Assembly (NCBI RefSeq): GCF_020005365.1
Contig: NZ_JACNML010000004.1
Span: 1 to 64,000 of the forward strand
Direction of reading: 5' to 3'
Source of the DNA: Kangiella shandongensis
GTDB lineage: Bacteria > Pseudomonadota > Gammaproteobacteria > Enterobacterales > Kangiellaceae
Length of the DNA stretch: 64,000 bases
A program made the position numbers and the translations under genes. The notes under the pieces were generated by a model that was not told where the DNA came from, did no database searches, and worked only from the letters and a program-made list of their open reading frames with translations. Of this stretch, positions 31,949 to 59,496 are shown piece by piece (the stretch's first letter is position 1; every line of letters starts with the position of its first letter).

Positions 31949-32928
31949 TACACGACCCCCGCTTTTAATAAGTCATGCATATGGACGGCGCCGAGAGGCT
32001 TGTTGTCATCACCGACCACGATAAGACAGGTGATACTGTTTTGCTCCATCAGTCCAAAGGCATCGACGGCGAGGGCATCGGCAGTAATGGTTTTGCCGCC
32101 CCTGGTCATGACCTGCTCGATAATTGCGTTAACATCAACACCTTTTTCGAACGCACGGCGTAAATCACCATCAGTGAAAATGCCGAGTAAGTTTTGATTG
32201 GCATCCAGTACTGCTGTCATACCCAGACGCTTGTCTGTCATTTCGAGTAAGGCATCTTTTATCGGAGTACCTGGCGTCACCGTTGGAAAGTTTTCCGCAG
32301 TATGCATTAAATCTTCGACCTGCAATAAGAGGCGCTTACCCAGGCTACCGCCGGGGTGCGATAAGGCAAAGTCGTCTGGCGTAAACCCTTTCGCTTCAAG
32401 CAGGGTGACCGCAATGGCATCGCCCAGCGCCAGAACCGCAGTGGTGGATGCTGTTGGTGCCAGGTTGTGAGGGCATGCCTCCTGAGAGACTTTAACCGTT
32501 AAGTGGACCATACTCGCTTTTGCTAAACTGGAGCTCGGGTTGCTGGTAATGCTGATTAAAGGGATGTTGCGCCGCTTAATGACCGGAATTAAGGAAGTGA
32601 CTTCGTGAGTTTCCCCTGAGTTGGAGAGTGCTATCACCACGTCCCGCTCTTCGATCATGCCCAGATCACCGTGACTGGCTTCAGCCGGGTGTACGAAAAA
32701 AGCAGGTGTTCCTGTGCTGGCAAGAGTAGCGGCCATCTTACCGCCAATATGCCCGGACTTACCCATACCGATAACAACCACTTTCCCCTGACAATCCAGC
32801 AACCGCTGGCAGGCGGTGACGAAATCATCATTAAGCTGTGATTTTAATTGCTTAACAGCATCACTTTCGATGGTTATGACACGCTCAGCGCTGGCTAAAA
32901 ATTGCTGCTTGTCTGGCTGTTGACTCAA
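31948..32928 (-). CDS. kdsD: Arabinose-5-phosphate isomerase KdsD
   Basis: The product converts ribulose-5-phosphate to arabinose-5-phosphate for Kdo synthesis. The 326-residue protein has a SIS domain (about 40-175, with VIGMGKSGHIGGKMAATLASTGTPAFFVHPAE split over the sugar-phosphate site) followed by two CBS domains to the C-terminus. It starts the kds-lpt operon, with the CaCA exchanger upstream after 57 bp. Confidence 0.96.
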   Translation of the reverse strand: MSQQPDKQQFLASAERVITIESDAVKQLKSQLNDDFVTACQRLLDCQGKVVVIGMGKSGHIGGKMAATLASTGTPAFFVHPAEASHGDLGMIEERDVVIALSNSGETHEVTSLIPVIKRRNIPLISITSNPSSSLAKASMVHLTVKVSQEACPHNLAPTASTTAVLALGDAIAVTLLEAKGFTPDDFALSHPGGSLGKRLLLQVEDLMHTAENFPTVTPGTPIKDALLEMTDKRLGMTAVLDANQNLLGIFTDGDLRRAFEKGVDVNAIIEQVMTRGGKTITADALAVDAFGLMEQNSITCLIVVGDDNKPLGAVHMHDLLKAGVV

Positions 32929-56480: not shown

Positions 56481-56608
56481 AAGGCAAAAAGAACCGCACC
56501 CCGATATTGAGGTTATTTTTCAAATAACTTCCTTCACTTCATTCAAATCATTTAACGCACCGTGAAATACAGCCCATCCCTGGCCTGTTTTTCACTATTT
56601 GAATCATC

Positions 56609-56633
56609 TACCAAGGGTATTTCCGTTGGTCAC
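56609..56633 (-). repeat. Dispersed short repeat, copy G
   Basis: The minus strand reads GTGACCAACGGAAATACCCT then TGGTA; it is oriented opposite to its neighbours. Confidence 0.5.
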
Positions 56634-56758
56634 AAATTCAAATTGCTATGCCTTTCATTTCGCTCAGCTCAATATAAGGGGATACTGGCGCAGGCTTGTG
56701 CTTTTACAGCTCCCCTTAAAGTTAGCCGAGTGAGGAGAAGTTATAGCGTAAATTGGTT

Positions 56759-57019: not shown

Positions 57020-57483
57020 ATGGCATCAATATTTAATCGAAACAAAATAGTAAAACGAAAAGTGCCTAGAAAACATCAGTGTAGAGTATATTTTGCCTTA
57101 GGTGGAGATGAGTTTGTTCCCGAAGAAGTTACTAAGCTTTTAGGCATTGAACCCACTAAGGTGAGTTATAAAGGAAAATCGACAAAAGGATATATGATCA
57201 GAAAGACTTCTTGGATTTTTTAACAGAAAATTTAATTGAAGATTACATTGACGTTTTTGAAATGTCATCTGAGATAGTAGCTCAATTAATTTATAAGAAA
57301 GATAAGCTTTTAGAAGCAATAAATAGATTCAAACTAATACCAAGGCTAGAAGTTGTACTGAGTTTTTCTACTGATGATAAAACTTCAATGCCTGCAATTG
57401 GCTTCGATACTGAAACCGTTAAATTTTTAGGGGAAATTGGGGCTGTTATTGATATTGATACTTACCAGCAGCCTCGCTCATAA
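57020..57483 (+). pseudogene. DUF4279 gene split by a frameshift
   Basis: The first part (ATG at 57020, or 56993) reads to a TAA at 57221 and contains CRVYFALGGDEFVPEEVTKL and LGIEPTKVSYKG. The second part continues in the -1 frame (FLTENLIEDYIDVFEM, then PRLEVVLSFSTDDKTSMPAI, and FLGEIGAVIDIDTYQ). Together they make one DUF4279 protein of about 155 residues. The break is at six T (57216-57221); one more T would restore SWIFLTENL. This is most likely a deletion in the homopolymer, in the organism or in the sequence. DUF4279 function is unknown, although the family often lies among toxin-immunity-like genes. Confidence 0.8.
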
Positions 57484-57990
57484 ATTTTTACTCAATTCAT
57501 AAACCGCTATCCCACAAGCGGTTGCGACATTCATTGATGAGTTATTTCCTAACATTGGAATATGCGTGGTGATGTCGGCTAGTGCGAGTAAGTCTTTGCT
57601 GACGCCTGTATTTTCCGAGCCGAGTATTAAACATACCTTGGTGTCTTTTTCTAACTTTAGTTCTTGCAGTGGAATACTGTCGCTGGTGATTTCTAATGCA
57701 ATAATACTGTAGTTTTGTTTTGTTAATTCTTTTATTAATTCGATGTGGTTATCTACAGCTTCGTAATCAACGTACTTTTCGGTACTGCGTGAGGTTTTTC
57801 TGATTTTATTACTGGGTGGTGTTGGCGTATCGCCGGAAAGATAAATTTTCTCTACGCCAAGAGCATCGCTGATGCGGAATAAACTGCCGACGTTCATGGG
57901 GACGGTGATGTTATGGGCGAGTAGCCGAATAGGATGTGTAGTGGTTTTTCTTTGGTGGTCGCTGTGTTCGAGTTGTCGATTTGTGCCCAT
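57478..57990 (-). CDS. SpoU/TrmH-family RNA 2'-O-methyltransferase
   Basis: The 170-residue SPOUT-fold protein has the three SpoU motifs: NITVPMNVGSLFRISDALG near the N-terminus, LILGSENTGVSKDLL, and IPMLGNNSSMNVATACGIAVYEL forming the SAM-binding knot. The absence of an N-terminal RNA-binding domain resembles TrmL-type tRNA wobble-base methyltransferases, but the substrate cannot be fixed from sequence. A relic of a close copy lies 0.5 kb away. It converges with the broken DUF4279 gene, stops overlapping by 6 bases. Confidence 0.9.
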   Translation of the reverse strand: MGTNRQLEHSDHQRKTTTHPIRLLAHNITVPMNVGSLFRISDALGVEKIYLSGDTPTPPSNKIRKTSRSTEKYVDYEAVDNHIELIKELTKQNYSIIALEITSDSIPLQELKLEKDTKVCLILGSENTGVSKDLLALADITTHIPMLGNNSSMNVATACGIAVYELSKNL

Positions 57991-58070
57991 GAGTTTTCTG
58001 TGTTTTTTATGATGCGCTTAGTTTGCCTCAGCTTGCTGGTTTTGGCAAAACGACAGGGTGTTTATGAGAT

Positions 58071-58127
58071 AAAAAAACAGCCAGCGCAAAACTTAGGGGT
58101 AGTCAGGGGTAGTCTGTGCGCTGGCTG
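58071..58127 (-). terminator. Large terminator hairpin with tandem repeat in its loop
   Basis: On the minus strand CAGCCAGCGCA pairs perfectly with TGCGCTGGCTG and is followed by seven T. The 28-nt loop holds a tandem 10-mer (AGGGGTAGTC twice on the plus strand). It could end the sRNA at 58290-58463 or glsA readthrough. Confidence 0.75.
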
Positions 58128-58289
58128 CTGCACTGAAGGTAACTGATTTAAGAATAGACTATTCAAACCTATTGTTAATTATGATGTTTCTATATCAGCT
58201 GCTTCAGATTGGGGTAGTGATAAGAGAGAGTTGTTATATAAATTAAATTCCTTTTCCGTTTGTCCGTTTTGGGTTATTGCTCTAAGTGT
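58128..58289. other. AT-rich non-coding spacer
   Basis: No gene, GGA motif or clear hairpin is seen between the large terminator and the GGA-hairpin RNA. If the RNA is not terminated by its last hairpin, this would be its 3' extension. Confidence 0.4.
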
Positions 58290-58463
58290 TGAAGGGGGCT
58301 GCACGTCCTGTGCAGGTCCCCTTTTCATCAACACGCTCTTCCTGAGCGATTCTCTTCCATTAAGATACTCTTTCCTTGAGTCCTCGTCCTGAGCTGCTCC
58401 CTTCCTGAGAACATTTCCTCACTCTTCTTCCTGAAGAGTGGAACCATCCGTTGGTTCGATTGT
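58290..58463 (-). ncRNA. Candidate CsrB/RsmZ-type sRNA (CsrA/RsmA sponge)
   Basis: The minus strand carries about eleven GGA motifs in roughly 170 nt. Perfect hairpins display them in apical loops: CACTCTTC-AGGAA-GAAGAGTG (58420-58440), CGCTC-AGGAA-GAGCG (58334-58348), CTGCAC-AGGAC-GTGCAG inside an AAGGGG/CCCCTT stem (58292-58323) and GAACC-AACGGAT-GGTTC (58441-58457). Other GGA lie in weaker hairpins or single strands. There is no ORF. CsrA/RsmA binds AGGA/CAGGA loops, and sponge RNAs such as CsrB, CsrC and RsmZ consist of such arrays. The 5' end is set by the -10 at 58470. The 3' end may instead be the terminator at 58071 (about 390 nt). Confidence 0.75.
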
Positions 58464-58469
58464 TATTTA

Positions 58470-58519
58470 ACTATAATTGATCGCTCGGATATAGTCGTAA
58501 AAGATGAAGCTTTTGTAAG
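58470..58519 (-). promoter_or_regulatory. Promoter and possible GacA/UvrY-type half-site of the sRNA
   Basis: The minus-strand -10 TATAGT (58475-58470) lies about 7 bases upstream of the inferred start. CTTACA (58519-58514), one half of the TGTAAG-N6-CTTACA upstream activating sequence of rsm/csr RNA genes, is near -55. The other half of the palindrome is not conserved. Confidence 0.45.
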
Positions 58520-58545
58520 AGATTGTCCATTGCTACTTTAAGTTT

Positions 58546-59496
58546 TTATTCGTATTCAAGTTCGTCAAAGATGGGAGAGGGCCCGAAAACGTTGGATTGG
58601 GTGATGGTGGTGAAAATTTCCAGCGCCTTAATACCTTTGCTGGAGTTACCTTTACTGTTGAGTCCAGGACTCCAGACGGCAATACTGTATTGATCAGGGT
58701 AAATCGCAACGATACCGCCGCCGACGCCACTTTTTCCGGGTAAGCCCACCTTAAAAGCAAACTCGCCAGCCTCATCATAAAAACCACACAGTAGCATAAT
58801 GGCATTAATCCGTTTGGTTTCTCGGGCACTGAGTACTTGCTTACCGTTAAGCGGGTTTTTGCCGCTTCTGGCGAGAAACATAAAGGTTTGCGCAAGATCT
58901 TTGCAGGACATTTCGATGGAGCAGAGGTGGAAATAGAAATCCAGTACCTCTTCAACATCATTTTCGATATTACCAAAAGACTTCATCAGGTTAATGTGAG
59001 CATTATTTTTAAAACCGCAGGCTTTTTCGGATTCGGCGGTTTTACTGCTGTAGTCGATACCGGAGTTACCGGCCAGCTCACGAACGAAGGCTATAAAGTT
59101 ATCGTAAGGCTCGTTCAGGTGACTGAGCAAGATATCGCAAATGACGATGGCACCTGCATTAATTAGAGGGTTACGTGGAATCCCCTGTTCGTATTCTAAC
59201 TGCACCAGGGAGTTGAAAGGGCTACCTGACGGTTCGACGCCAACTCGCTTCCATAAGTCAGTACCGACTAACTTAAAGGCGTAGACCAGCGAAAGAACCT
59301 TGGATATGCTCTGTATGGAAAAAGGGGTGTCGGTGTCACCGTGAGCGTATTCATGACCTTCTTCAGTAACTAAATACATGCCAAAACTATTTGGGTTTGC
59401 CTTGGCCAGGGCAGGAATATAGGCCGCTACCTGACCAATTTGTTCGAAGTCCTTTAGCTCGTCACTGATCTTCTCAAAAATTTCTTGATAATTCAT
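58546..59496 (-). CDS. glsA: Glutaminase
   Basis: The 316-residue serine-dependent beta-lactamase-fold glutaminase converts glutamine to glutamate and ammonia. The catalytic Ser-x-x-Lys is S63-K66 in FSIQSISK. Also present are NPLINAGAI, the Tyr in GIDYSSKTAESE, and the C-terminal KSGVGGGIVAIYPDQYSIAVWSPGLN in parts. It is isolated from other genes. The sRNA candidate begins about 80 bases downstream on the same strand. Confidence 0.96.
   Translation of the reverse strand: MNYQEIFEKISDELKDFEQIGQVAAYIPALAKANPNSFGMYLVTEEGHEYAHGDTDTPFSIQSISKVLSLVYAFKLVGTDLWKRVGVEPSGSPFNSLVQLEYEQGIPRNPLINAGAIVICDILLSHLNEPYDNFIAFVRELAGNSGIDYSSKTAESEKACGFKNNAHINLMKSFGNIENDVEEVLDFYFHLCSIEMSCKDLAQTFMFLARSGKNPLNGKQVLSARETKRINAIMLLCGFYDEAGEFAFKVGLPGKSGVGGGIVAIYPDQYSIAVWSPGLNSKGNSSKGIKALEIFTTITQSNVFGPSPIFDELEYE

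Follow-up and report, generated by a model that had tools for sequence, protein, structure and literature searches.

Analysis of a 64,000-nt stretch of Kangiella shandongensis DNA (hereafter, the window) revealed on its minus strand an array of GGA-loop hairpins that is very probably the gene of a Csr-type regulatory RNA, i.e. a sponge of CsrA. An earlier note, made from the letters of this DNA, had proposed a Csr/Rsm sponge RNA here, and the proposal is now supported by synteny, by covariation, by a csrC-type activator site and by the presence of csrA and UvrY in the same genome. What looks to be new is that relatives carry a small-protein gene on apparently the same transcript as the Csr-type sponge. 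In the mechanism we propose, phosphorylated UvrY (GacA) would bind the csrC-type site and thereby activate a weak promoter; the RNA would start near 58463, fold into a row of hairpins with GGA in their loops, bind several CsrA dimers and so release mRNAs from CsrA, and it would end probably at a terminator near 58070, giving a transcript of ~394 nt. Transcription, activation by UvrY, CsrA binding and CsrA titration by the array RNA are what we infer from the sequence. Coordinates are collected in Table 1.

Table 1. Features of the array locus (window coordinates) and of the second Csr-like RNA of the genome.
Feature	Position	Strand	Basis or remark
glsA, glutaminase, upstream neighbour	58546..59496	-	PF04960, E 2.5e-114
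Predicted UvrY/GacA (csrC-type) activator site	58514..58531	-	3 mismatches to Salmonella csrC site
-10 hexamer TATAGT	58470..58475	-	direct reading
GGA-hairpin array, putative Csr-type sponge domain	58286..58470	-	fold and shuffles, Rfam CsrB, model R1, covariation
Hairpin 1, loop contains GGA	58441..58457	-	fold
Hairpin 2, AGGA loop, 8-bp stem	58420..58440	-	fold
Hairpin 3, AGGA loop, 7-bp stem	58395..58413	-	fold
Hairpin 4, loop contains AGGA	58367..58381	-	fold
Hairpin 5, AGGA loop, 4-bp stem	58335..58347	-	fold
Hairpin 6, AGGA loop, 6-bp stem	58299..58315	-	fold
C-terminal remnant of 76-aa ORF	58179..58223	-	alignment with 6 loci with intact ORF
Predicted intrinsic terminator, hairpin 58076-58129 and T run	58070..58129	-	fold
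SpoU-family RNA methylase gene, downstream neighbour	57478..57990	-	PF00588, E 5.5e-32
Second Csr/RsmZ-like RNA, dapB-carA	G000:C25:52857-52986 (L119:6858-6987)		~130 nt with terminator

Results

The array is predicted to present GGA motifs in hairpin loops

Exploring the 185 nt of the array, we counted 12 GGA motifs, in agreement with the earlier estimate of about eleven in 170 nt. In the predicted fold, eight of the 12 are fully unpaired and six lie in apical loops, where at least four had been claimed. Dinucleotide shuffles of the array (n = 500) averaged 1.7 unpaired and 0.7 apical GGA with maxima of 6 and 3, respectively, and none of the 500 matched the six apical motifs. The number of GGA by itself stands out less, the same shuffles averaging 7.2 and reaching 12. 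On both strands of the window, GGA density peaks at 13 per 170 nt in the stretch starting at 58418 on the minus strand; the best stretch away from the array has 9 per 170 nt, and shuffles of the local 3 kb (n = 200) had a maximum of 8. The earlier note had placed the array at 58290-58519 and suggested folding the minus strand. This 230-nt stretch folds at -75.1 kcal/mol (z = -4.85; 0/200 shuffles as low); it contains the array but drops the last 4 nt of the long closing hairpin, which has hairpin 6 as its apex and ends at 58286. Hairpin 5 is absent from the fold of this longer stretch, which includes upstream DNA. The predicted 394-nt transcript has 15 GGA in total, seven of them fully unpaired in its fold.

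Rfam CsrB (RF00018) matched the array over the full model with 34.4 bits (cmscan, E = 4.9e-7); this score is below the gathering score of 71 bits and the array is therefore not filed as a member of the family. In a search of the whole genome the array had an E-value of 8.4e-8 and the three other matches all had E >=2.4. Among 61 genomes (own included), 22 matched RF00018 at E <=0.05 and nine scored above the cut-off, from which we infer that genuine Csr RNAs of this order can fall below the cut-off. Of the seven genomes that carry the array, RF00018 detected it in five (own, G001, G005, G007 and G015), whereas G009 and G010 gave no match to it. The earlier note had expected that homology searches could miss the array; Rfam does score it, below the cut-off. 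Elsewhere in the window, TwoAYGGAY RNA matched 56550-56648 (minus strand) weakly, with 22.5 bits against a cut-off of 43 (E 4), possibly by chance.

The array is conserved within one clade of Kangiella

The location between glsA and an RNA methyltransferase gene, as first described, was confirmed by matches to PF04960 and PF00588, and the methylase has its nearest relatives in named records in Kangiella spongicola and an uncultured Kangiella. Among the 20 genomes of the genus (own included), glsA was found in 10 (E <=1e-40) and the methylase in seven (E <=1e-20), and in these same seven the array, searched with model R1, lies between the two genes, i.e. every genome with both flanking genes keeps the array (7/7). 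Because R1 was built from the seven array loci, their R1 scores are by construction. The remaining three of the 10 glsA genomes have neither the neighbouring methylase nor the array, and R1 gave no array match at E <=0.1 in the other 13 of the 20 genomes, a search in which part of the first-look candidates were scored in some genomes (e.g. 127 of 146 in G006) and from which the absence of the array in G003, G014 and G012 was read. R1 also matched weakly elsewhere in G005 (E 0.095) and at two Csr-like loci of other genera, L016 (E 0.0063) and L021 (E 0.17). In a CarA-gene tree (19 genomes, midpoint root) a branch supported at 100/99 separates the seven array genomes from the others, and a single gain of the array within the genus is therefore the simplest reading. 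Outside Kangiella, we examined five further proteobacterial loci with methylases 52-55% identical (L093-L097); as none had an R1 match at E <=1, the methylase was rejected as a marker of the array there. Two loci with methylases of 41-45% identity (L098 and L099) lie outside the R1 search. In L093, the upstream sequence reaches 8 GGA per 170 nt. A search of a plasmid collection gave four short matches, two of which are annotated as glutaminase.

Each of the seven arrays (182-201 nt) holds 10-12 GGA, of which 7-9 are unpaired, and 90.7% of cells pair in the consensus structure of the seven-sequence alignment (RNAalifold). Double-sided changes were found in 16 of the 45 consensus pairs, as compared to a mean of 6.9 in shuffles (0/500 as high) and to 2-6 pairs when the structure was slid along the alignment. 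Further pair types give a less clear signal (34 vs 29.3 in shuffles; 16/500 as high), and covariation contributes little to the RNAalifold energy (-0.77 of -37.81 kcal/mol). As this alignment also supplied the structure, the covariation test leans somewhat towards it. The earlier note had named loss of the GGA loops in close relatives with conserved flanks as an outcome that would count against a sponge; wherever the flanks are conserved the GGA loops are kept, in all seven genomes.

A csrC-type site precedes the array and a predicted terminator lies distal to it

The predicted activator site, which on the plus strand reads TGTAAGAGATTGTCCATT, is centred at about -59 from the putative transcription start. 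With 3 mismatches over 18 positions, it is the single best match in the 64 kb to the Salmonella csrC site, given as TGTGAGACATTGACCATT in the consulted part of PMC4682653; the next best has 4 mismatches (at 32483). Against the palindromic UvrY consensus it does not stand out: it has 7 mismatches, a score that 86 positions of the window equal or better. The sites of the six other syntenic loci have 1, 2, 4, 4, 5 and 5 mismatches to the Salmonella csrC site and 4-8 to the palindromic consensus. The motif TCTYACAAAASCTTCATC is identical, with no mismatch, in all seven syntenic loci and on the other strand is part of the 18-nt site. Hence the CTTACA that had been described as a half-site near -55 is present, but it is not just a half-site, being part of this longer csrC-type site. 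The same part of PMC4682653 describes binding of UvrY/SirA to inverted repeats of 18 nt that lie far upstream of both csrB and csrC, with the E. coli csrB repeat centred at -183.

The -10 hexamer TATAGT just upstream of the array was read as claimed; an alternative -10, AATTAT, lies three bases further upstream, and the TTAAATA that follows the -10 is largely kept among the loci. Transcription would start at ~58463, give or take a few bases. A promoter scan of the window listed none at the proposed array promoter, and at the matching place it listed TTTACA-17-CATTAT in L091 and none in L092. What the pattern scan of the window did list is a promoter-like site on the minus strand within the transcript (58151-58178) and, on the plus strand, one promoter-like and two terminator-like sites. 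The predicted terminator, folded for the window only, has a free energy of -26.3 kcal/mol (z -5.4), and its counterparts could be aligned in the six other loci with T runs of varying quality. The terminator scan of the window did not list 58070-58129, whose loop exceeds the limit of 8 set by the scan. The loop (58085-58115, minus strand) contains a repeated ACTACCCCT in the window, and a TACCCC-like stretch recurs in the terminator loops of relatives.

A 76-aa ORF follows the array in relatives and is a remnant in the window

In six of the seven syntenic loci, the array and a short spacer with a ribosome-site-like AAAAGGA are followed by an ORF of 76 aa, MAIKLI(Q/H)KYQGWWDSS... (L091:3575-3805 and L092:3576-3806 in two of the relatives). 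Judged by its substitutions, this ORF is under purifying selection (dN/dS ~0.005-0.06 in 10 of 15 pairwise comparisons, dS being without value in the other five). A protein search over 80 genomes (E <=0.01) found it in these six only. The protein matched no Pfam or NCBIfam family at E <=1; its PHROGs match had an E-value of only 0.052 and its best PDB sequence match one of 0.84. A low-confidence AlphaFold2 model made from two sequences (mean pLDDT 63) suggests three strands and a helix and had no fold match at E <=0.001. Between the array and the ORF no sense-strand terminator was recognised by eye in the six loci, nor by the terminator scan in the two that were scanned (L091 and L092); as the scan also misses the distal terminator, it does not exclude a long-loop terminator at this place. 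The sole terminator recognised in the ORF-bearing loci lies beyond the ORF.

The window locus lacks roughly 150 bp compared to its relatives (by eye on the alignment) and has no start codon at the old start of the ORF, while the ribosome-site-like AAAAGGAATTTA at 58244-58255 and the C-terminal remnant persist. The statement that no ORF is present holds for frames of at least 90 aa but not for short ones, the longest on the minus strand being a 51-aa frame that starts at a GTG (58179-58334; 49 aa from the first ATG) and runs from the closing hairpin into the ORF remnant; we see no sign that it is translated. The simplest picture is that array and ORF form one transcript and that the species of the window lost the ORF and kept the array.

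The arrangement in relatives raises the question of whether the array serves mainly as a 5' leader to the 76-aa ORF, through which CsrA would control translation or stability of the mRNA in cis, the window locus then being a relic left after loss of the ORF. The position of the ORF in six of seven loci, the lack of a recognised sense-strand terminator before it (six loci by eye, two by scan) and the GGA within its AAAAGGA would all agree with such a leader. Known CsrA-repressed leaders have few GGA, however, and 10-12 GGA per 182-201-nt array is far above that; moreover, the array of the window, which lacks the ORF, retains its 12 GGA, its paired stems and its activator site. We thus regard a mere leader as unlikely. 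Given that the array is well formed in the window although the ORF is gone, the comparison favours a role in trans. The sponge reading can be extended, as a tentative proposal that we find quite possible, to a dual-function Csr RNA in which one UvrY-controlled transcript carries both a CsrB-like sponge leader and the 76-aa protein, the species of the window having lost the protein and kept the sponge. With the same reserve, this would wire CsrA release to the synthesis of a small protein and represent a step from an mRNA-borne sponge to a plain sRNA. The array of the window may possibly derive from such a dual-function RNA.

The genome encodes the rest of a probable Csr circuit and a second Csr-like RNA

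The genome of the window encodes both CsrA and UvrY. Its UvrY is 55% identical to that of E. coli, the one stop reported being the ORF's own, and uvrY lies four bases before an ORF read by eye as uvrC. There are two csrA genes with the same core sequence ~1.2 kb apart (G000:C26:77955-78110 and 79180-79335; L034 and L035).

A second Csr/RsmZ-like RNA lies between dapB and carA. It is present in every one of the 19 genomes that yielded carA: the first expression used recovered it in 18, and a relaxed form of the expression in the remaining one. Model R2, which was built from these 19, found it in 19 of the 20 genus genomes, the miss being a genome that is 55% complete. Its nearest Rfam family is PrrB_RsmZ (19.6 bits, E 0.025), below the cut-offs. 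In 14 of the 19 genomes its upstream region has a site with <=5 mismatches from the UvrY consensus or the Salmonella csrC site, in each case 223-253 nt before the core motif of the RNA; the sites of G004 and G011 are identical to the Salmonella csrC site, and the best site of the window's own genome has 3 mismatches from the consensus. The sites of G001, G007, G015 and G019 are weaker (6-7 mismatches), and the contig of G012 has too little upstream sequence for a site to be judged. The array and the dapB-carA RNA are alike in being GGA-rich, in having UvrY-like sites upstream and in occurring in the same genomes, whereas the dapB-carA RNA is only ~130 nt long, has 5-6 GGA and its own terminator, and is found genus-wide.

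R2 also gave weak matches within the regions of G045 and G047 that match CsrB; since antisense matches of R2 beside the dapB-carA RNA have similar E-values in several genomes, weak R2 matches prove little. One such match in the window (56487-56626, minus strand, E 0.041) is possibly due to chance. In the family-level relative L021, a match to RF00018 (29 bits) also lies between dapB and carA. G049, which belongs to a different family of the order, has two CsrB-like matches in tandem after dapB (L016:1004-1224 and 1501-1743), as if the region downstream of dapB were an old site for Csr RNAs. In the window's genome an ORF of 352 aa, SEL1-repeat-like by eye, lies between the dapB-carA RNA and carA.

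Searches of the 20 genus genomes with short motifs recovered the known loci. With <=2 mismatches, TCTYACAAAASCTTCATC gave 24 matches in 13 genomes, compared to 7 for the reversed control; the seven perfect matches are the known array loci, and the other 17 were rejected as further arrays, having at most 7 GGA per 170 nt. Reading of the TCTYACAAAASCTTCATC matches L061 and L072 likewise revealed no array. The activator site TTGTAAGAGATNGTCCAT, with <=2 mismatches, gave 15 matches in 11 genomes (control, 2), eight of which fall at the array or dapB-carA Csr loci. The other seven were rejected as Csr loci: Rfam families of the CsrB or Rsm type did not match them at E <=0.5, and no R2 match was convincing, one of them having a cut-off match of 21 nt (L126, E 0.016). 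The RF00018 match of G017 (L025) is the dapB-carA RNA and not an array.

Discussion

The features by which Csr RNAs are recognised were found at this locus as follows: many GGA motifs, several in apical loops (12 and six); a structure conserved in relatives (seven loci); an upstream site of the UvrY/GacA type, present in sequence with 3 mismatches to that of Salmonella csrC; and csrA and UvrY in the genome of the array. For a noncoding RNA that ends in an intrinsic terminator the picture is mixed: in the window a terminator is predicted from the fold of 58076-58129 and open frames are short, one of 51 aa running into the remnant, but in six of the seven loci an ORF precedes that terminator. 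Against a sponge we count the score below the Rfam gathering score, the restriction of the array to one clade of the genus, its absence from three of 10 glsA genomes, the position of the site near -59, its 7 mismatches to the palindromic consensus, the small RNAalifold covariation term and the number of further pair types, which 16 of 500 shuffles reach. A sponge for some other RNA-binding protein, or a structured RNA that merely resembles CsrB, would accord with the low Rfam score and with a CsrA-binding capacity read here from sequence, yet it is very improbable in view of the AGGA apical loops, the csrC-type site and the CsrA and UvrY of the genome. That a purine-rich sequence formed these hairpins by chance is scarcely credible: 12 GGA are within reach of composition-matched shuffles (mean 7.2), but none of 500 had six in apical loops, and covariation and synteny contradict it.

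Like CsrB and CsrC of E. coli and Salmonella, the array is a row of GGA-loop hairpins with a csrC-type UvrY/SirA site. Unlike them, it scores below the Rfam cut-off, its terminator lies ~155 nt beyond the array with the ORF or its remnant in between, and its activator site, near -59, is closer than that of E. coli csrB (-183). It also has fewer GGA, 12 in the array and 15 over the predicted 394 nt, than the 22 of CsrB, and it differs from CsrC, which has 14 (PMC11882849, in the part consulted). The same part of that paper describes three experimentally verified Csr sRNAs of Pseudoalteromonas fuliginea, Pf1, Pf2 and Pf3, which, like the Kangiella RNAs, are several diverged Csr sRNAs in one marine gammaproteobacterium and were recognised by GGA motifs, promoter and terminator (PMC11882849). 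They differ from the array of Kangiella in their reported experimental verification and in that the consulted part of the paper mentions no associated ORF.

CsrA-binding RNA joined to coding sequence may be what the six relatives carry, and in this they would resemble two known mRNA sponges. The fim leader of Salmonella acts as an mRNA sponge of CsrA. The flagellin mRNA of Campylobacter also acts as a CsrA sponge (PMC4894983, in the part consulted). Compared to both, the leader in Kangiella, as its sequence presents it, is CsrB-like, with 10-12 GGA and a UvrY-type site. Our literature searches, in which subscription journals were thinly covered, found no report of the array under Kangiella and CsrA or small RNA, and no such element under Csr RNAs and small proteins, the consulted part of PMC10117436 included.

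The array fills in the Csr circuit of Kangiella, for which we found no relevant prior paper. It also illustrates how synteny, covariation and a UvrY site can lend support to diverged Csr RNAs whose scores fall short of the Rfam cut-off. If array and ORF indeed share a transcript, Kangiella would have a natural CsrA sponge fused to a small-protein gene, one lineage of which dropped the protein, and the two arrangements would offer a clean comparison of whether the sponge works without the mRNA.
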